7,574 bases of DNA from contig JABIQT010000161.1 in the NCBI GenBank assembly GCA_018667995.1, forward strand, positions 1 to 7,574, written 5' to 3'. The position numbers were made by a program, and so were the translations under genes. Origin of the DNA: Candidatus Latescibacterota bacterium. GTDB lineage: Bacteria > JAAXHH01 > JABIQT01. The notes under the pieces were generated by a model that was given only the letters and a program-made list of their open reading frames with translations, ran no database searches and was not told where the DNA came from. Positions 1-7,466 of the stretch are shown here, one piece after another (positions within the stretch are counted from its first letter, which is position 1; the number at the start of each line of letters is the position of its first letter).

Positions 1-491
1 TAGGGGATAGGGCAAACTGGCATTTAATTGGTCATCTACAGACGAATAAAGTCAAACACGCGGTTCGCGTCTTTGACATGATACACTCCGTAGACCGTCT
101 TCAGCTGGGGCAGGAAATCAGCAAACGCTGCGAGGCGCTTGGAAAGAAAATTCCCGTACTTGTCCAGGTTAAGACATCGGACGAGGAATCCAAGTCTGGA
201 ATAGCACCGGCAGAAGCTGAAGAACTAATCGGTCATTTGGCTGGACTACCGGGAATAATGGTAATGGGATTAATGACCATACCTGCATTTGCCGATGACC
301 CCAATGGCTCTCGCCCTGCCTTTTCAGAACTTCGTAAACTCCGGGACCGGTTAGTGGCTACGGCCATTGACGGGGTGGAAATGCGATATCTATCTATGGG
401 TATGTCGAACGATTTTGAAGCGGCCATAGAAGAAGGCTCGAATCTTGTTCGGGTTGGCACTGCTATCTTCGGCGCGAGGCCACAGCCTTGA
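1..491 (+). CDS. yggS: YggS/PROSC-family PLP homeostasis protein, 5' truncated by window edge
   Basis: This is the C-terminal two thirds of a YggS (YlmE, PLPBP) family protein, a cytosolic single-domain PLP-binding barrel that buffers pyridoxal phosphate and affects amino-acid and keto-acid balance; no enzymatic reaction is established for the family. The frame is open from the first base. The first recognisable motif is WHLIGHLQTNKVKH (bases 18-59), matching the family WHFIGxLQxNK signature. Later come VLVQVKTSDEESKSG (the family V-x-x-S-x-E-x-SKxG strand), GLMTIPAF, and the phosphate-binding end LSMGMSNDFEAAIEEGS followed by VRVGTAIFGAR. The PLP-attaching lysine normally lies in the first 40 or so residues and is outside the window, so its presence cannot be judged. 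An internal ATG at 78 is not the start, because conserved family sequence lies upstream of it. The TGA stop is directly followed by the yggT ribosome-binding site, so the two genes are almost certainly cotranscribed. Family assignment is very secure. Confidence 0.96.
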   Translation, partial: GDRANWHLIGHLQTNKVKHAVRVFDMIHSVDRLQLGQEISKRCEALGKKIPVLVQVKTSDEESKSGIAPAEAEELIGHLAGLPGIMVMGLMTIPAFADDPNGSRPAFSELRKLRDRLVATAIDGVEMRYLSMGMSNDFEAAIEEGSNLVRVGTAIFGARPQP

Positions 492-501: not shown

Positions 502-1332
502 ATGGGATTACTTGATCTGGCCATGAGGCTGTATATGCTGGCTCTGGGGCTGCGAATGATTCTGCCCACGGTGACGCCGTTTACCGATAATCCGATTCTT
601 CGCGGCATGTACCAGGTAACCGAGCCATTCCTGCAGTTTCTTCGTCAGTATGTGCCCAAAAGTCGGCAGGGGTTAGACTGGTCGCCTCTTGTAGGGATTC
701 TGCTGGTTATGATTGCTCGTGGCGTTTTGTTGAGCCTTGCGGCGGGACTGCCCTTAAGTGCCGGGCTGATTGATAGTGCTTTGGAGATTGAGGATTTTGC
801 GGTTACTGCGCTATCCGTGGTATTTCTGGGTGTTTTCTTTATCTCGATGGGTACTCCATTCGGCTTCAGTCAGATAGGCCAGGTAATGGTCAATGTGACT
901 GATCCAGTGCTCTTTCCCTTAAGACGATTCATAGGGCGGGCATCCAGCGGTGCAGACATCGCCGCTCTGGTGGCCATTGTCCTTGTCGGTCTGATTGATG
1001 GACTGGTTCAGTATCAGATCCAGGCAATGTTTGGTGGCCAGGAGGTCGCTGCCGATATTGGATCCTATCTCGTAGGCGGGGTAGCGAATGTCTTGATCAC
1101 ATTGCTTGATATGCTATTCTACATCATATTCGCACGTGTGATTCTGAGCTGGTTTAGTCCGGATCCGTCTACGCCTGTTTTTCAATTATTGATCATCTAT
1201 ACCGATCCGATTCTCGCGCCCATACAGCGGATTATGCCATCCACCTATGGAATGGATTTTTCTCCTATTATCGCCGCGATGATCATAGGGTTTGTACGCT
1301 CAAATGTAGTACCGCTACTGATGCAACTATGA
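502..1332 (+). CDS. yggT: YggT-family membrane protein with three YGGT modules
   Basis: This is a 276-residue integral membrane protein of the YggT/YlmG/YCF19 family. The family has been linked to osmotic tolerance, septum or envelope organisation and, in plastids, nucleoid distribution; its molecular activity is not firmly known. The sequence shows three successive copies of the module: residues 1-80, about 97-173 and about 200-276. Each has a hydrophobic helix, a T-[DE]-P-x-L signature (TEPFL at 40, TDPVL at 133, TDPIL at 234), a basic loop and a second hydrophobic helix starting near DWSPLVGILL, ADIAALVAIV or MDFSPIIAAM. That predicts about six membrane segments. The third copy is the most canonical, with ARVILSWFSPDPSTP. 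Usual family members have one module (about 90 residues) or two (about 190). The start at ATG 502 is set by a strong ribosome-binding site. It is flanked by yggS and divIVA, as in the Gram-positive ylmE-ylmG-divIVA cluster. Confidence 0.93.
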   Translation: MGLLDLAMRLYMLALGLRMILPTVTPFTDNPILRGMYQVTEPFLQFLRQYVPKSRQGLDWSPLVGILLVMIARGVLLSLAAGLPLSAGLIDSALEIEDFAVTALSVVFLGVFFISMGTPFGFSQIGQVMVNVTDPVLFPLRRFIGRASSGADIAALVAIVLVGLIDGLVQYQIQAMFGGQEVAADIGSYLVGGVANVLITLLDMLFYIIFARVILSWFSPDPSTPVFQLLIIYTDPILAPIQRIMPSTYGMDFSPIIAAMIIGFVRSNVVPLLMQL

Positions 1333-1339
1333 AACTGTC

Positions 1340-1346
1340 GAGGTGA
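1340..1346 (+). promoter_or_regulatory. Ribosome-binding site favouring the GTG 1349 start of divIVA
   Basis: GAGGTGA at 1340-1346 matches the anti-Shine-Dalgarno complement. It is correctly spaced for GTG 1349, whereas the alternative GTG at 1343 lies inside it. Start 1349 also gives the usual DivIVA opening, M-S-L-T-P. Confidence 0.7.
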
Positions 1347-1348
1347 CT

Positions 1349-1849
1349 GTGAGCCTGACCCCTGAGGAAATTCAGAGCCGGGAATTCAAGCAGCGCTGGG
1401 TAAGTGGCTATGACATGGACCAGGTCGAGTCTTTTCTCAAGGCTGTGGCCGGAAGCTACGAAACTCTGTTGACTGAGAACGAGGCCCTCAAGGAGGAAGT
1501 CGCCGGCATGACCGGAGAACTCGACAGCTTCAGGACCCGACGAAGGCACCTTGAGGAAGCTCTGGTATCCGCCCAGCAGGTGATAGACGAAATGAAGGTA
1601 AATGCGCGTAAAGAAGCCGATCTAATTGTAAAAGACGCTGAGCTCCAGGCTGACCGCTGGATAGCGGATGCCAATACTCAGGTGCTGGAGACCAAGCGGG
1701 AACTCAATAATCTGGAGATGTTTCGAAGAGATTACGAGATCAAACTGAGATCACTTCTTGAATCGCACATGGCCATATTGGATGCAAAGAATGCACTGGG
1801 GCCACGGAGCGAACAGTCTGGTGACTCAGGGATTTCACCGCAGTCATGA
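1349..1849 (+). CDS. divIVA: DivIVA-domain cell division/polarity protein
   Basis: This is a 166-residue DivIVA/GpsB-type protein. The family binds negatively curved membrane at poles and septa and recruits division, chromosome-anchoring or wall-growth proteins. Residues 1-33 hold the N-terminal membrane-binding domain: SLTPEEIQSREF, then GYDMDQVESFL, equivalent to the family GYDxdEVdxFL. In the tip loop between these, W17 sits where B. subtilis has the membrane-inserting F17, and the loop is one residue longer (RWVSGYD against SFRGYD). Residues about 30-145 are heptad-rich coiled coil, including the conserved stretch ARKEADLIVKDAELQADRWI, which resembles the second coiled-coil part of B. subtilis DivIVA. 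The last 20 residues are polar and probably disordered. GTG 1349 is preferred on its ribosome-binding site. The stop overlaps the next gene by four bases (ATGA), which implies translational coupling. Family assignment is secure; the exact polar or septal role is inferred. Confidence 0.93.
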   Translation: MSLTPEEIQSREFKQRWVSGYDMDQVESFLKAVAGSYETLLTENEALKEEVAGMTGELDSFRTRRRHLEEALVSAQQVIDEMKVNARKEADLIVKDAELQADRWIADANTQVLETKRELNNLEMFRRDYEIKLRSLLESHMAILDAKNALGPRSEQSGDSGISPQS

Positions 1850-2607
1850 GTGAATCTTACGTCCCCGGATTCAAGGATTTGGTGTCGATTGCTGACGACA
1901 TACGTCAGCGTGTCGACGCCTCATCGATCATTGGCTTTGCCGCCTTCGAAGGTCTGTCTCGCGACTCGATTGACTTTGAGACATTAGACGAAAGCTGGCG
2001 CCCGTTTGTCGGTTTGAAGATGTTGAACGGCACAGCCATTCTCATGGTCGCTTCATCGGATGATGGGACGTCTCAAGACCGAACTGCTGGAATTCGAATT
2101 TTGAAGCAGATGGACGGTGCGTTCCTCTTGACAGTAGGACGCTGCACAACATTGCACGCAAGAATACCTGAAAACGGGTTGGCGTTGATCGCGGACCATA
2201 TAAATCTAACGGGATCGAACCCACTTAGTGGCCCGAATGATGATGAAATTGGTCCCCGCTTTTCAAGTATGACGGAACCGTATAGGTTCAGGCTTCTTAA
2301 GCTGGCTGAGGAGCTCGCGCTCGCTGAAGGACTCACCGCACACAGGTGTGTCTTTGCCGGCATTGCGGCCTCCCCGACGGCCGCCGAATGCAGATACCTG
2401 GCTTATACGGGAGCAGATGTATACGGATTTGGAATCACATCCGACACGATTGTCGCGAATCATACCGATTTGGCTGTGATTGCACTCGCTGATGTTATTG
2501 CGAGTCGCATTCCCGAAGGACCAGTGTCGCGTGGGAGCATGCCGTTAGATGCGACGCGACTTTCTGATTCCCTGTCTGTGATGGTAGAGCGAATATTAGC
2601 GTCGTGA
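1846..2607 (+). CDS. Purine nucleoside phosphorylase-like protein, probably catalytically inactive
   Basis: This is a 253-residue protein with the fold of trimeric (class I) purine nucleoside phosphorylases, which normally split inosine or guanosine with phosphate. The family is recognised from DHINLTGSNPLSGPN (118-132) with GPRF (136-139), then AAECRYLAYTGAD (179-191) and IVANH (202-206). By my manual alignment to human PNP, the active-site residues are gone. There is no GSGLG phosphate loop near residues 28-40, no GRxHxYEG motif (SSDDGTSQ stands there), and no NAAGG loop (TVGRCTTL at 96-103). The GPSFET motif reads IAASPT, so Glu201 aligns with P177. GMS reads GFG (194-196), and Asn243 aligns with A219. 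The frame is intact and hydrophobic positions are kept, so this looks like a selected pseudoenzyme rather than a decaying gene. ATG 1846 overlaps the divIVA stop by four bases and has no good ribosome-binding site, so translation is probably coupled. A ligand-binding or scaffold role with DivIVA is possible but unproven. Confidence 0.8.
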   Translation: MSESYVPGFKDLVSIADDIRQRVDASSIIGFAAFEGLSRDSIDFETLDESWRPFVGLKMLNGTAILMVASSDDGTSQDRTAGIRILKQMDGAFLLTVGRCTTLHARIPENGLALIADHINLTGSNPLSGPNDDEIGPRFSSMTEPYRFRLLKLAEELALAEGLTAHRCVFAGIAASPTAAECRYLAYTGADVYGFGITSDTIVANHTDLAVIALADVIASRIPEGPVSRGSMPLDATRLSDSLSVMVERILAS

Positions 2608-2661: not shown

Positions 2662-3033
2662 ATGAAAGCGAAGGACATTGAGCGTTACGAGAAACTATTG
2701 CTTGAGAAGCGCAAGTCACTCATGCACGAACTTGGTTACTTTGGTGACAAGACGCTAAATACAAACGTGAGAGACGTGTCTGGGAGCCATCCCTATTCTG
2801 AGCATCCGGCTGACCAGGGCACTGAAATGATGGAGCAGGAACAGGCTTATAGTCTAGCCACCCGTGAAGGGCGGTTCCTATTTCATATTGATGAGGCCCT
2901 CAACCGTGTGAAGGACGGTACATATGGGATTTGCGCGGAATGCAAGGAGCCGATTAACTCCAAGCGATTGGAAGCTGTACCCCATGCACGGATGTGCATT
3001 GAATGCAAATCCCGTGAGGAAGATCCCAGTTAG
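2662..3033 (+). CDS. TraR/DksA-family C4 zinc-finger protein (YlyA/YteA-like)
   Basis: This is a 123-residue protein of the TraR/DksA superfamily. These proteins reach into the secondary channel of RNA polymerase and modulate promoter opening, often together with ppGpp. Residues 1-80 form the helical hairpin. Its tip reads HPADQGTE (48-55), equivalent to the E. coli DksA tip DPADRA: one acidic residue is kept (D51) while the other is His48, and the key Ala is Gly53. Residues 88-118 form the zinc finger with all four cysteines (C91-A-E-C94 and C112-I-E-C115), preceded by the family DGTYGIC pattern. At 123 residues it is a little shorter than E. coli DksA (151). The tip fits the Gram-positive YlyA/YteA type better than true DksA, so ppGpp cooperation should not be assumed. 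Its place directly before lspA matches ylyA of B. subtilis. The reading frame continues without another stop into lspA after its TAG. Confidence 0.92.
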   Translation: MKAKDIERYEKLLLEKRKSLMHELGYFGDKTLNTNVRDVSGSHPYSEHPADQGTEMMEQEQAYSLATREGRFLFHIDEALNRVKDGTYGICAECKEPINSKRLEAVPHARMCIECKSREEDPS

Positions 3034-3069: not shown

Positions 3070-3663
3070 TTGGCACTTCTGCCCCGGTTTCGCCGATTGT
3101 TTCAGGTTGTCACTGATCTTGGCGCGGGCCACATCTTGGTCTATCCATTGCCATTTCTTATCATAATTCTGCTATCCGTCGTGATTCTGGATCAGGTGAC
3201 AAAGTACATCGTCCAGCAGAACATGACATTGCACGCGTCCATACCGGTACTCAGCGATTACGTACGGCTGACGTATATTCACAATCCCGGCGCGGCATTT
3301 GGTATCATGCCCGGCAACCGATGGCTGTTTCTCGCCCTCTCCCTAGTTGCATGCGGCGTATTGATATACTATTTCTATGCCTTGCCGGCCGATGAACGCT
3401 GGGGACGGCGCGCGCTCATGGGGATTCTTGGTGGCGCCGTCGGGAATCTCATCGATAGAGTGCGATTCGGTGAAGTTACTGACTTTGTAGATGTGGGCAT
3501 AGGGACCTACAGGTGGCCGGTGTTTAATGTGGCCGACATGGCCGTCACGATTGGAGTCGCGATTCTGTTCCTGCGCCTCTCTTCGTTACCCAAGAACGAA
3601 AAACAGGAACAGGCTTCCGAAGATCAAGGTGAGCTCATCAATAGTGAGGATCGTACCTCCTGA
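3070..3663 (+). CDS. lspA: Lipoprotein signal peptidase (signal peptidase II)
   Basis: LspA is the inner-membrane aspartyl protease that removes signal peptides from diacylglyceryl-modified prolipoproteins. The call gives 197 residues, against about 150-170 for most of the family. There are four membrane segments: about 27-40 (PLPFLIIILLSVVI, running into DQVTK at 41), 85-103, 112-127 and 151-168. Conserved motifs are DQVTKY (41-46), HNPGAAFGI (71-79), GGAVGNLIDR (121-130) and VFNVADMAV (151-159). The catalytic pair is D129 and D156, so the enzyme should be active. The start is uncertain: no ATG or GTG lies in frame between the upstream stop (3031-3033) and the middle of the first membrane segment. 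TTG 3070 is the likeliest codon but has only a distant GGAG (3047-3050). TTG 3097, 3136 or 3148 would give a more normal N-terminus. The last 24 or so residues are charged and overlap the rluD start. The product confidence is high; the start confidence is low. Confidence 0.93.
   Translation: MALLPRFRRLFQVVTDLGAGHILVYPLPFLIIILLSVVILDQVTKYIVQQNMTLHASIPVLSDYVRLTYIHNPGAAFGIMPGNRWLFLALSLVACGVLIYYFYALPADERWGRRALMGILGGAVGNLIDRVRFGEVTDFVDVGIGTYRWPVFNVADMAVTIGVAILFLRLSSLPKNEKQEQASEDQGELINSEDRTS
3626..3632 (+). promoter_or_regulatory. Ribosome-binding site supporting the rluD start at GTG 3644
   Basis: AAGGTGA lies 11 bases before GTG 3644, inside the 3' end of lspA. The alternative in-frame GTG at 3629 overlaps this site and has little of its own upstream. 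Confidence 0.5.
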
Positions 3664-4600
3664 GGCCCCACGTCAAAGAATTGACAGGTACCTGGCCGAT
3701 GCGGATACGGGACTCTCTCGTAGTAAGATTCAGAATCTGATTCGAAGTGAGGCCGTAGCGGTAAACGCGCGCACGGTAAACCGGCCTGGACAGAATATCG
3801 GTCCGGGAGATGAGATTCGAATCGCAGTGCCCGTGGATCAACCGGTCCAGGCTGAACCTGAAGATATCCCGTTAGACATCATATACGAAGATGACGCCCT
3901 GCTGGTTGTGAATAAGAGCCCGGGAATGGTCGTACATCCAGCCTGCGGCCATAGAAGTGGAACGCTCGTAAACGCACTGTTATATCATTGCGGCAGATTG
4001 TCATCCCCCGGCGAGTCGTTTCGTCCCGGAATCGTCCATAGACTTGACAAGGATACGTCGGGTTTACTGGTCGTTGCCAAGCGAGACGATGTCCATGTGG
4101 ACCTGGCGCAGCAGATAGAGGCACGATCGGCGACCAGGCGGTATACTGCTGTTGTCTGGGGGCTTCCTTCCCCTACCGCCGGAAGCGTCGATGAACCCGT
4201 AGGTCGCCACCCCCGTCATCGACAAAGGATGGCCGTTGTCTCCAATGGAAAGCCAGCAGTCACACACTACGAAGTGACAGAAACGCTGGCGTTCTGCTCA
4301 GTCCTATCTGTCAAACTTGAAACGGGACGGACCCATCAGATTAGGGTGCACATGGGGCATCTTGGAAATCCTGTATTCGGTGACAGCACCTACGGGGGAC
4401 GGGTAAAACGACTCGGTCGCCTCTCTCCACCGGACCGCAGGAGCGCTCGGGGCGCTCTGGAACAGATGCCCCGGCAGGCGCTGCATGCCGCAGAACTTGA
4501 GTTCTGTCATCCTCTCACAGGTGATATCATCTCTTGCAAGGCCCCGATTCCGGAAGATATGACAGGACTCTTGAGGCAACTTCGCATTAGCAGCTATTAG
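3644..4600 (+). CDS. rluD: RluD-type 23S rRNA pseudouridine synthase
   Basis: This is a 318-residue RluA-family pseudouridine synthase, called RluD/YlyB-like because it carries an N-terminal S4 RNA-binding domain. RluD isomerises uridines of helix 69 in 23S rRNA, in the cytoplasm. The S4 domain covers about residues 9-62 (RQRIDRYL, LSRSKIQNLI, AVAVN, GDEIRIAVP). The catalytic domain follows from about residue 75: IIYEDDALLVVNKSPGMVVHP, shown here as 79-99, and then the signature HRLDKDTSGLLVVAK (132-146) with catalytic Asp135. GRTHQIRVHM, FGDSTYGG and ALHAAELEF are also present. Length is normal for the family (about 300-326). GTG 3644 overlaps lspA by 20 bases, and GTG 3629 is the alternative. 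Reading further upstream in this frame only gives residues shadowing lspA. It follows lspA as ylyB does in B. subtilis, and it appears to end the conserved cluster. Confidence 0.94.
   Translation: MRIVPPEAPRQRIDRYLADADTGLSRSKIQNLIRSEAVAVNARTVNRPGQNIGPGDEIRIAVPVDQPVQAEPEDIPLDIIYEDDALLVVNKSPGMVVHPACGHRSGTLVNALLYHCGRLSSPGESFRPGIVHRLDKDTSGLLVVAKRDDVHVDLAQQIEARSATRRYTAVVWGLPSPTAGSVDEPVGRHPRHRQRMAVVSNGKPAVTHYEVTETLAFCSVLSVKLETGRTHQIRVHMGHLGNPVFGDSTYGGRVKRLGRLSPPDRRSARGALEQMPRQALHAAELEFCHPLTGDIISCKAPIPEDMTGLLRQLRISSY
4571..4600 (+). promoter_or_regulatory. Weak candidate sigma-70 promoter for the GAF-PP2C gene
   Basis: TTGAGG (4571-4576) and TATTAG (4595-4600) are separated by 18 bases, each matching four of six consensus positions. 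They lie 31-60 bases before ATG 4631. A chance match is quite possible, but the functional break after rluD makes a separate promoter reasonable. Confidence 0.2.
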
Positions 4601-4630: not shown

Positions 4631-6436
4631 ATGTCACTATTGCCATCTGAAGAACAGGCCGGAATCCCGGCTGTGCCGCACATCAATGGACGATGGCAGC
4701 GTGTTGCCGCGTCCATGACGTCGATGACGGCATCGCCTGACGGCGCGTCTTTGAGGGCAACCATTCAGGAGATCGTGCCCGAAGCACTTGGCGCGGTGGA
4801 TTGTGCGTTCATCGTACTCGACGAGTCGTGTGACCAAATCGTCTTTGAGAGCCGCCATCAGGATCACCATTCTCGGAAGCCGACTCCCGATTTTGAGATA
4901 TTCCGAACCTGGCTGGTTTCGCAGCCAACGGTTGTGGTGATTGATGATTGCCGGACCGTGACATGGCCTTCCCAGGTCCAGCTGACAGAGCCGAAGACAA
5001 TGCAGCCTGTCTTGATCGTGCAGGACAAGGTAGATCCGGCTATGTTCAATTTGCTCGTTGTTTTCGGCGAGTCGGTGGCGGCTATTTTTTCAGACGAAGA
5101 CCTGGAAGTTGCGAGGGCATTGACCGTCCACGCAGGGCTGGCAGTGCGGCATGTTCTGCGCGAAGAAAATGCCCGAAGAGAGGTAATGGGACGCACCGCA
5201 CTCTACGAGGTCGGTAAAAGAATCAGCGCATCGCTCGCCATGGACGAGGTGTTGTCTCTCATCATAGACTCGCTGCAGCGTGTGGTTCCCTATGACGCGG
5301 CAGTGATATTTCTGCTCGAGCCCGAACAGGATCGAATCGTCGTGCAGTCTGGCCGTGGGTACGGCGAAGACGCGGATTCGCTCATTCACCTGAAGGTCGG
5401 AGATGGAATCAGCGGGTGGGCCGCAAAGACGGGGCTGGCTGTTATAGTTCCCGACGTTAAAACCGATGACAGGTATGCTCAGTCGCGGTCTGAAACCATG
5501 TCCGAAATGGCTGTGCCTCTCATGAAGGGGCTTGAGGTGATCGGCGTCTTTAACATCGAGAGTGATCGGATCGACGCGTACGATGAGATGGACCGCGCCC
5601 TCCTCGAATCCTTCGCTTCTCAGGCGGCGGTGGCTATTCAGAATGCTAACCTGCACGAAGAATCTCTCCGAACACGGCAGCTAGAGAAGGAGTTGGAAGT
5701 CGCTGGCGATATCCAGCGAATGCTCATGCCACGCAAGTTTCCCACGGTCTCTGGACTCTCGCTGAATGTATACCACGAGCAGTGTATGGAGGTCGGCGGC
5801 GACTTCTACGATGCCTTTGCCCTTTCCAATCAATACATTGCTATGGCTGTGGGCGATGTGGCCGGGAAAGGCGTACCTGGCGCAATAACTATGGCGTCGT
5901 TGTACACGGTATTTCACGAGTATGCGACCGATCCACTGAATACGCCCAGCGATGTCATGACCGTTGTGAACGAACGACTACATGACGATCGCGGGACTGA
6001 TCTATTCGCGACCCTGTTCTACGGTGTATTGAGCTTGAGCAATGGTAACATGAGATACTGCAATGCCGGGCATCCGCCGCCCATTCTATATCGTACTGAT
6101 GGTAGCGTATCGTTGCTGGATACAGGCGGATTGATTCTCGGGCCCTTTCTGAAGGCTGAATACCAGGTAGGTTCTGTCGACATTTCCGAAGGTGATGTGC
6201 TCGTCCTCTATACGGATGGCGCCATCGAGGCTCGAAATAAGAAAAACGAACAGTTTGAGATAGAGGGCTTGATTCGTGTTCTTCAAACTTGCCCCGGACT
6301 TTCGGCGGACGAAATCAAGGAGTTCTTGACCACAGCCCTGAAGCGGCACACGGGCGGGTCAACACATCACGATGATGTGACGATTATTACACTGAAGGTT
6401 ATGGCGGGTTTTCACAGCGCTTTACGAGTAGAGTAG
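4631..6436 (+). CDS. GAF-GAF-PP2C (SpoIIE/RsbU-type) serine/threonine phosphatase
   Basis: This is a 601-residue cytosolic sensor phosphatase with no signal peptide or membrane segment. Residues about 38-175 form a divergent GAF-like domain (VDCAFIVLDE, MFNLLVVFG, FSDEDLEVARALTVHAGLAV). Residues about 187-340 form a canonical GAF domain (ISASLAMDEVLSLIID, VGDGISGWAAKTG, VPDVKTDDRY, SEMAVPL, IGVFNIES, FASQAAVAIQNA). A helical linker (340-366), with QLEKELEVAGDIQRMLMP at 350-367, is typical of RsbU-like proteins. The PP2C domain (about 370-590) keeps its metal-binding motifs: GGDFYD (389-394), VGDVAGKGVPGA (407-418), NAGHPPP (478-484), LYTDGAIEA (526-534) and HHDDVTIITLK (579-589). Family members dephosphorylate STAS-domain anti-sigma antagonists to free sigma factors. 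What the GAF domains bind cannot be read here. ATG 4631 has no clear ribosome-binding site; ATG 4718 is a weaker alternative. It starts 30 bases after rluD, so it could be cotranscribed with it. Confidence 0.93.
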   Translation: MSLLPSEEQAGIPAVPHINGRWQRVAASMTSMTASPDGASLRATIQEIVPEALGAVDCAFIVLDESCDQIVFESRHQDHHSRKPTPDFEIFRTWLVSQPTVVVIDDCRTVTWPSQVQLTEPKTMQPVLIVQDKVDPAMFNLLVVFGESVAAIFSDEDLEVARALTVHAGLAVRHVLREENARREVMGRTALYEVGKRISASLAMDEVLSLIIDSLQRVVPYDAAVIFLLEPEQDRIVVQSGRGYGEDADSLIHLKVGDGISGWAAKTGLAVIVPDVKTDDRYAQSRSETMSEMAVPLMKGLEVIGVFNIESDRIDAYDEMDRALLESFASQAAVAIQNANLHEESLRTRQLEKELEVAGDIQRMLMPRKFPTVSGLSLNVYHEQCMEVGGDFYDAFALSNQYIAMAVGDVAGKGVPGAITMASLYTVFHEYATDPLNTPSDVMTVVNERLHDDRGTDLFATLFYGVLSLSNGNMRYCNAGHPPPILYRTDGSVSLLDTGGLILGPFLKAEYQVGSVDISEGDVLVLYTDGAIEARNKKNEQFEIEGLIRVLQTCPGLSADEIKEFLTTALKRHTGGSTHHDDVTIITLKVMAGFHSALRVE

Positions 6437-6503: not shown

Positions 6504-7466
6504 GTGGCGGTCAGAATCGGATTCATCGGTACAGGCGGGATCGCGAATCACCATCTCAATCTATTGCCCAACATTGATCGGGCGCATCTCGTCGCTTTCT
6601 CTGATGTGGTGGAGGAAAAGGCGAACGCCGCGGCCGAACGATTTGGCGGTACCGCCTACACGGACTTCCGCGAGATGCTTCAGCGCGAAGAGCTGGACGC
6701 CGTATACGTGTGCGTGCCGCCATTCGCGCATGGCGATGCGGAGATGGCAGTCATTGAGCACGGCCTGCATCTATTTGTCGAAAAACCTCTGGCCACAGTT
6801 CTGAGCGTGGCAGAGAACATCTCCTCCGCGGTAGATGCCTCGGGTATTATCGCCTGCGTGGGATATAACTGGCGTCATCAGGACACGACGGATCGGGCGC
6901 TGGAATTGCTGAAGGGGCGCCGTCCAGCTCTGGGTATAGGATATTGGATAGGTGGCGCACCTGGTGTTCCCTGGTGGCGTGTCAAGGCTCAGTCTGGAGG
7001 TCAGATCGTGGAACAGACGACCCATGTTTTCGATACGGCTAGATACCTCATGGGTGAGGTGACCTCGGTCTACGCCGCGGGCTCGACGGGCTTGATGGAC
7101 GATATGCCCAATTACGATGTGGAAGATGCGAGTACCGTGTCTCTCACTTTTGAGAGCGGAGCGGTGGCCTCCATAGTATCAGGCTGCGTTGCGGATCAAG
7201 GCTATGGCACAGAGATGCAAGTCATCACCCGCGGATTAACGATCAAACTGGGCGCGAACCTCACAGTAGAAGAGAATGGTAAAACCACCACCTACAAAGG
7301 TTCGAGAAATCCCTATCAATTTGAAAGCGAACTGTTCTTGCAGGCCGTTGAGAGCGGTGACCGATCAAAGTTGAGAGCGACCTATGCCGATGGGGTAAAG
7401 ACGCTGGCTCTTACGTTGGCGGCAAATGAATCTATCCGGACTGGAGACGTTGTGAAAATGGCTTAA
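6504..7466 (+). CDS. Gfo/Idh/MocA-family NAD(P)-dependent oxidoreductase
   Basis: This is a 320-residue cytosolic oxidoreductase of the glucose-fructose oxidoreductase / inositol dehydrogenase family. Residues about 1-120 form the Rossmann domain: GFIGTGGIANHH (6-17) is the dinucleotide loop, AFSDV (31-35) ends the second strand with an acidic residue as in NAD-preferring members, and VYVCVPPFAHGD (67-78) and EKPLA (93-97) follow. Lys94 of EKP is the usual catalytic lysine. The C-terminal substrate domain includes GYNWRHQ (120-126), a tryptophan pair in PWWRVKA (156-162) and GGQIVEQTTHVFDTARYLMG (165-184), where H174 is the likely catalytic histidine. At 320 residues it is at the short end of the family (about 330-380). 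The substrate, probably a sugar or cyclitol, cannot be inferred. GTG 6504 is set by a strong ribosome-binding site. It is functionally unrelated to the cluster upstream, and the 67-base gap allows its own promoter, although no clear one is seen. Confidence 0.93.
   Translation: MAVRIGFIGTGGIANHHLNLLPNIDRAHLVAFSDVVEEKANAAAERFGGTAYTDFREMLQREELDAVYVCVPPFAHGDAEMAVIEHGLHLFVEKPLATVLSVAENISSAVDASGIIACVGYNWRHQDTTDRALELLKGRRPALGIGYWIGGAPGVPWWRVKAQSGGQIVEQTTHVFDTARYLMGEVTSVYAAGSTGLMDDMPNYDVEDASTVSLTFESGAVASIVSGCVADQGYGTEMQVITRGLTIKLGANLTVEENGKTTTYKGSRNPYQFESELFLQAVESGDRSKLRATYADGVKTLALTLAANESIRTGDVVKMA

Follow-up and report, generated by a model that had tools for sequence, protein, structure and literature searches.

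A class I purine nucleoside phosphorylase relative encoded behind divIVA, with a predicted loss of catalysis and a retained interface loop

The window, which is the whole stretch of 7,574 nucleotides analysed here, stems from a metagenome-style assembly (6.06 Mb, 1165 contigs, 85% complete) and encodes a degenerate class I purine nucleoside phosphorylase (PNP), referred to below as the pseudoenzyme, among the following features:

78..491, + strand: 3' part of yggS, its start outside the frame (TIGR00044 above cut-off, match from profile position 98)
502..1332, + strand: yggT-type membrane protein (PF02325, 138 bits)
1343..1849, + strand: divIVA, DivIVA domain, 168 aa (PF05103, 117 bits)
1846..1849, + strand: ATGA overlap of the divIVA stop and the pseudoenzyme start (shared with L068 of genus g4, absent from g3 and g5)
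1846..2607, + strand: pseudoenzyme of 253 aa, a degenerate class I PNP linked to divIVA, from profile matches, structural matches and alignment
2194..2283, + strand: kept block of the interface loop, DHINLTGSNPLSGPNDDEIGPRFSSMTEPY (residues 117-146, corresponding to 134-166 in calf PNP), from the loop columns kept, pN/pS and PMC9916683
2365..2391, + strand: AASPTAAEC (residues 174-182), what is left of the purine-binding motif GPxxETxxE (Phe200-Glu201 deleted; Glu205 equivalent E181 kept)
2662..3033, + strand: DksA/YteA-like zinc-finger protein (above cut-off for PF01258, below it for TIGR02890 and TIGR02420)
3070..3663, + strand: lspA, signal peptidase II (TIGR00077 above cut-off)
3647..4600, + strand: rluA/rluD-type pseudouridine synthase (TIGR00005 above cut-off)
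4631-6436, + strand: GAF-SpoIIE phosphatase, 3' of rluD
6504-7466, + strand: GFO/IDH/MocA oxidoreductase

The phylum was sampled with 16 genomes of one order, with genera g1, g3 (12 species), g4 and g5 among the carriers. The pseudoenzyme gene is present in 15 of the 16, split across two contigs in one of them (G009), and stands in the order yggS-yggT-divIVA-pseudoenzyme-dksA-lspA-rluD wherever the contig is long enough, so that decay in a single genome or an assembly error is ruled out and the worry that only one genome might carry the degenerate form does not apply. As DksA is unmatched in the remaining genome (G001, 83% complete) along with the pseudoenzyme and DivIVA, a co-loss of the latter two is unusable as an argument. 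No relative contains an internal stop, and within g3 the pseudoenzyme shows a median dN/dS of 0.32 (range 0.20-0.42; 45 pairs; Nei-Gojobori), compared with 0.27 for the intact PNP of these bacteria, 0.155 for divIVA, 0.15 for lspA and 0.022 for dksA. The unbroken frames and this ratio rule out a decaying pseudogene and bear out the claim of an earlier sequence-only reading of this DNA that the frame is intact; the gene is under selection.

With respect to class membership, the pseudoenzyme reaches 36.8 bits against PF01048 (PNP_UDP_1; cut-off 25.1), the Pfam domain thus being recognized, and stays far below the cut-offs of the NCBIfam PNP equivalogs NF006054 (94 versus 218 bits) and TIGR01700 (69.8 versus 293 bits). 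Two AlphaFold2 models of the single chain, one built on just 13 degenerate relatives (pLDDT 79.9), the other on a mixed alignment (86.9), have exclusively class I PNPs as top structural matches (Foldseek, VIA-align), the best being 4lna with Z 23.1 and 4m1e with Z 26.8 (2.8 A over 245 residues). The whole chain is thus predicted to adopt the class I PNP fold, and both the domain match and the superposition on PNP, which the sequence-only reading had proposed, agree with its claim that the structural signature of the class is kept. Common to the pseudoenzyme and class I (trimeric) PNPs (PF01048/TIGR01697) are the fold, the loop DHINxxGxNPLxGPNDxxxGxRFxxM and the GADV and AxxH elements, whereas the phosphate, ribose and purine sites are missing from the pseudoenzyme, Phe200-Glu201 are deleted and the NCBIfam scores fall short.

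The extent of the active-site loss was read from an alignment that combined 42 active PNPs with six intact PNPs from the phylum, three relatives from a second phylum and nine pseudoenzymes; the residues of the active site and of the interface loop, taken in calf numbering from PMC9916683, were located in it by motif. Lost throughout the pseudoenzyme family are the phosphate loop, His64, Arg84, His86, Tyr88, Glu89, Asn115-Ala116, Met219-Ser220 and Asn243, with the GRxHxYEG loop and NAAGG absent. At the phosphate site (Ser33 loop, Arg84, His86, Ala116, Ser220) the required residues are missing, the Arg84 column being kept in at most one of the nine members; at the purine site Glu201 is deleted in 9/9 and Asn243 is changed to Lys, Ala or Ser. 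The earlier statement that catalytic and phosphate motifs are replaced consequently holds family-wide as to the losses, which do recur in the homologues, but not as to their manner: Phe200-Glu201 are gaps in all nine aligned members (SGPP--TPAE in L007 versus GPxxETxxE in active enzymes) rather than Glu201 being replaced by Pro177, and the segments of His64 and GRxHxYEG, both indeed lost, are mostly deleted and not substituted. Glu205 is kept in 6/9, and every member has Phe or Tyr where calf PNP has Phe159. Overall, the alignment shows that the catalytic site is gone, and the protein is predicted to be non-catalytic; as the purine-contacting residues and most of the phosphate/ribose site have disappeared, purine binding, which had been suggested from the sequence, is unlikely.

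Unlike the active site, the loop has largely been kept. Among columns conserved in at least 90% of active PNPs, and counted as kept when three or more of the four lineages have them, the pseudoenzymes retain 14/17 in the loop (134-166) versus 1/14 in the active site (Fisher p 4e-5), and in genus g3 the loop block has a pN/pS of 0.116 versus 0.50 before and 0.45 after it. The pseudoenzyme is hence selected as a protein, and selection is strongest in the loop. In calf PNP, loop 141-168 forms the main subunit interface and packs against residues 87-91 and 196-205 of the adjacent subunit, into the active site of which Phe159 extends (PMC9916683). These receiving faces are mostly deleted in the pseudoenzyme, which disfavours an ordinary homotrimer. 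In the first model, certainty is lowest at approximately residues 121-147, where the family is most conserved. Such a pattern would fit a segment that becomes ordered through contact with another chain, but is only a hint. A putative role as an oligomeric partner is the most likely function.

The ATGA overlap at 1846, from which expression in step with DivIVA had been concluded, is present as described, but is found in two of the four genera (g1 and g4), and no special coupling is conserved. In g3, divIVA and the pseudoenzyme gene lie 10-122 nt apart where this is measurable, and an 11-nt overlap with dksA is observed in all 12 species, while g5 has gaps of 71 and 105 nt and keeps the gene with an overlap on neither side. 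Expression in step with DivIVA may occur at the level of the operon.

Outside the phylum, a class I PNP is located directly behind divIVA in 31 of 70 other-species loci (L118-L147, L157-L196), the 70 being a non-random set that scored among the best in 384 surveyed genomes. By motif, 25 of the 31 possess all four catalytic motifs and six possess three, the unmatched pattern in the six being NAAGG, for which close variants such as STACGA are present. Like the pseudoenzyme, divIVA-linked active PNPs (L118, L124, L138 and Ca. Eisenbacteria L049) combine the position behind divIVA with the long loop, and several loci show the arrangement yggS-(yggT)-divIVA-PNP-dksA-lspA-rluD; unlike it, they have intact catalytic motifs, L049 ending at the contig edge before the Glu201 motif. 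In G076 (L152) a long gene, by eye an isoleucyl-tRNA synthetase, lies between PNP and dksA. Because intact PNPs occupy the position in many other species, the position behind divIVA looks inherited, and the pseudoenzyme is most simply read as the resident PNP of the operon after loss of catalysis. The basis for this descent is mainly gene order, as the tree unites the pseudoenzymes in one clade (100/100) on a long branch and leaves its attachment to the PNPs unsettled.

A second class I PNP, unlinked to divIVA, is encoded in all 14 genomes that were read for it and carries GTGFG, GRxHxYEG, NAAGG, GPxFET and mostly ISN; the NPLxGPND...RFPDM loop is absent from it. With 12/14 active-site and 4/17 loop columns kept (p 1e-3), the intact PNP and the pseudoenzyme have undergone opposite losses. 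A recent origin of the pseudoenzyme by duplication of the other PNP in its genome is disfavoured by gene order and an identity of only 26% over part of the chain, although the tree allows a common clade (AU p 0.54 for pseudoenzymes together with the intact PNPs of the phylum, not rejected). A YlmD-type enzyme (PF02578) as a substitute for PNP was matched in none of the 16 phylum genomes.

The same pairing is seen in a second small phylum (four incomplete genomes). In three of these (G021, G059, G061) a divIVA-linked PNP has an intact loop and an eroded active site, which in G021 and G059 is gone nearly completely; the least eroded, G061, has lost His64, Asn115-Ala116 and Glu201, with a GRxHxYEG-like motif and Met219-Ser220 remaining. 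The fourth (G060) provides a fragment with a changed Glu201, so that erosion of the divIVA-linked PNP appears graded across this phylum (L115, L116, L117, L203). All four genomes encode a separate short-loop PNP with GR(H)HYYEA, NS(A/V)GA, GPxYET and TN. The degenerate PNPs of both phyla may have a single shared origin: the best tree during topology testing joins them (75/97), while the first tree allows one event or two.

We consider it probable, at roughly 0.6, that the pseudoenzyme is an old divIVA-operon PNP which lost catalysis once the other PNP took over and has since been kept as a protein that has no catalytic function and probably forms oligomers. The divIVA-linked copy would be ancestral and kept by vertical descent, while phosphorolysis would be supplied by the second, short-loop class I PNP of the same genome; the operon copy could then have lost its active site while its PNP fold and interface loop remained. 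Made alongside the other proteins of the divIVA-dksA-lspA operon, the protein would dock with its loop on a protein chain, either itself or a putative partner, and any role in division would be presumptive. A point against this account is that the loop may merely be needed for the fold. This consideration leads to the view of the gene as a relict under weak general selection, with the loop required for folding of a long-loop PNP and the frame kept for translational coupling between divIVA and dksA. The overlaps, with ATGA in two genera and the 11 nt in all 12 g3 species, and the faster evolution of the rest of the pseudoenzyme than of its neighbours (0.32 versus 0.155 for divIVA and 0.022 for dksA) are compatible with a relict; its dN/dS, however, lies near that of the working paralogue (0.32 versus 0.27), coupling would not preserve specific loop residues across four lineages, and g5 keeps the gene without overlaps, so that we regard a relict as unlikely.

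Prozymes, for example of trypanosomatids, are pseudoenzyme activators. As in these systems, a dead paralogue is here under selection beside an active copy, any pairing with which is putative, and the pseudoenzyme could assemble as a prozyme-like subunit with the intact PNP of the cell, each supplying the loop or the receiving faces that the other has lost. The reciprocal counts (loop 14/17 and site 1/14 in the pseudoenzyme, 4/17 and 12/14 in the intact PNP), the location of faces 87-91 and 196-205 (PMC9916683) within motifs kept by the intact PNP only, and the recurrence of the pairing in a second phylum all point in this direction. On the other hand, the two genes are unlinked, and an old long-loop copy next to an acquired short-loop copy would give an equal pattern. 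Short-loop class I PNPs elsewhere (M. tuberculosis type) are active homotrimers, and the intact PNP thus needs no help; an assembly with it appears decidedly improbable. Slightly less doubtful, and still improbable, is the broader proposition that in the two phyla PNP has been split into complementary halves, an unlinked active-site copy and a loop-only copy in the divIVA operon, the latter being a prozyme-like regulator or structural partner that would link purine salvage with a division/stringent-response operon.

A DivIVA-associated scaffold or polarity factor, as suggested by the sequence-only reading, would agree with the adjacency of divIVA in all family genomes with both genes on the contig and, by analogy, with the purine enzyme YlmD. 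This purine-nucleoside phosphorylase (PMC6978800) is distinct from PNP and encoded within the Gram-positive ftsZ-ylmD-ylmE-sepF-divIVA cluster; in Streptomyces, deletions of ylmE and, less severely, of ylmD affect sporulation septation (PMC5943314). Like the pseudoenzyme locus, the YlmD/FAMIN (PF02578) arrangement unites a gene of the purine-nucleoside phosphorylase type with a yggS homologue and divIVA in a division cluster, but the enzyme has an unrelated fold and is catalytically active. YggS we take to be the homologue of YlmE. That the same division genes have come to adjoin two unrelated purine phosphorylases is an analogy that is suggestive only. Gene order alone supports the tie, and it is weakened by the active PNPs behind divIVA in 31/70 loci, which make the position uninformative on the dead form; a scaffold of this kind is accordingly given little credence. 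Least probable is a purine or nucleotide sensor with a rebuilt pocket: the Tyr192 position stays Tyr or Phe, Thr202 is mostly kept and a gene for a DksA-like regulator is adjacent, but the phosphate, ribose and purine contacts are all lost and no new conserved polar set has emerged at those sites.

A literature search, with most subscription journals outside its scope, found no publication on the divIVA-PNP pair or on a phylum-wide PNP pseudoenzyme. The family which probably descends from the divIVA-operon PNP represents a natural experiment that separates the needs of PNP catalysis from other retained features and points to the interface loop. The family also turns attention to the divIVA-PNP gene pair, widespread and apparently undescribed, and through it to a possible non-catalytic role of the active PNPs in that operon.

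The conserved gene block reaches past rluD, as a GAF-SpoIIE-like gene follows it also in g3 (L148) and g5 (L150), and in G002 a GFO/IDH/MocA-like gene is likewise located 3' of the SpoIIE phosphatase (L148 914-1951). Upstream of yggS, a divergent gene, by eye for a ComM-like (Mg-chelatase type) ATPase, is observed in g3 (L148 8646-10334, + strand) and g5 (L150 3096-4667, - strand).
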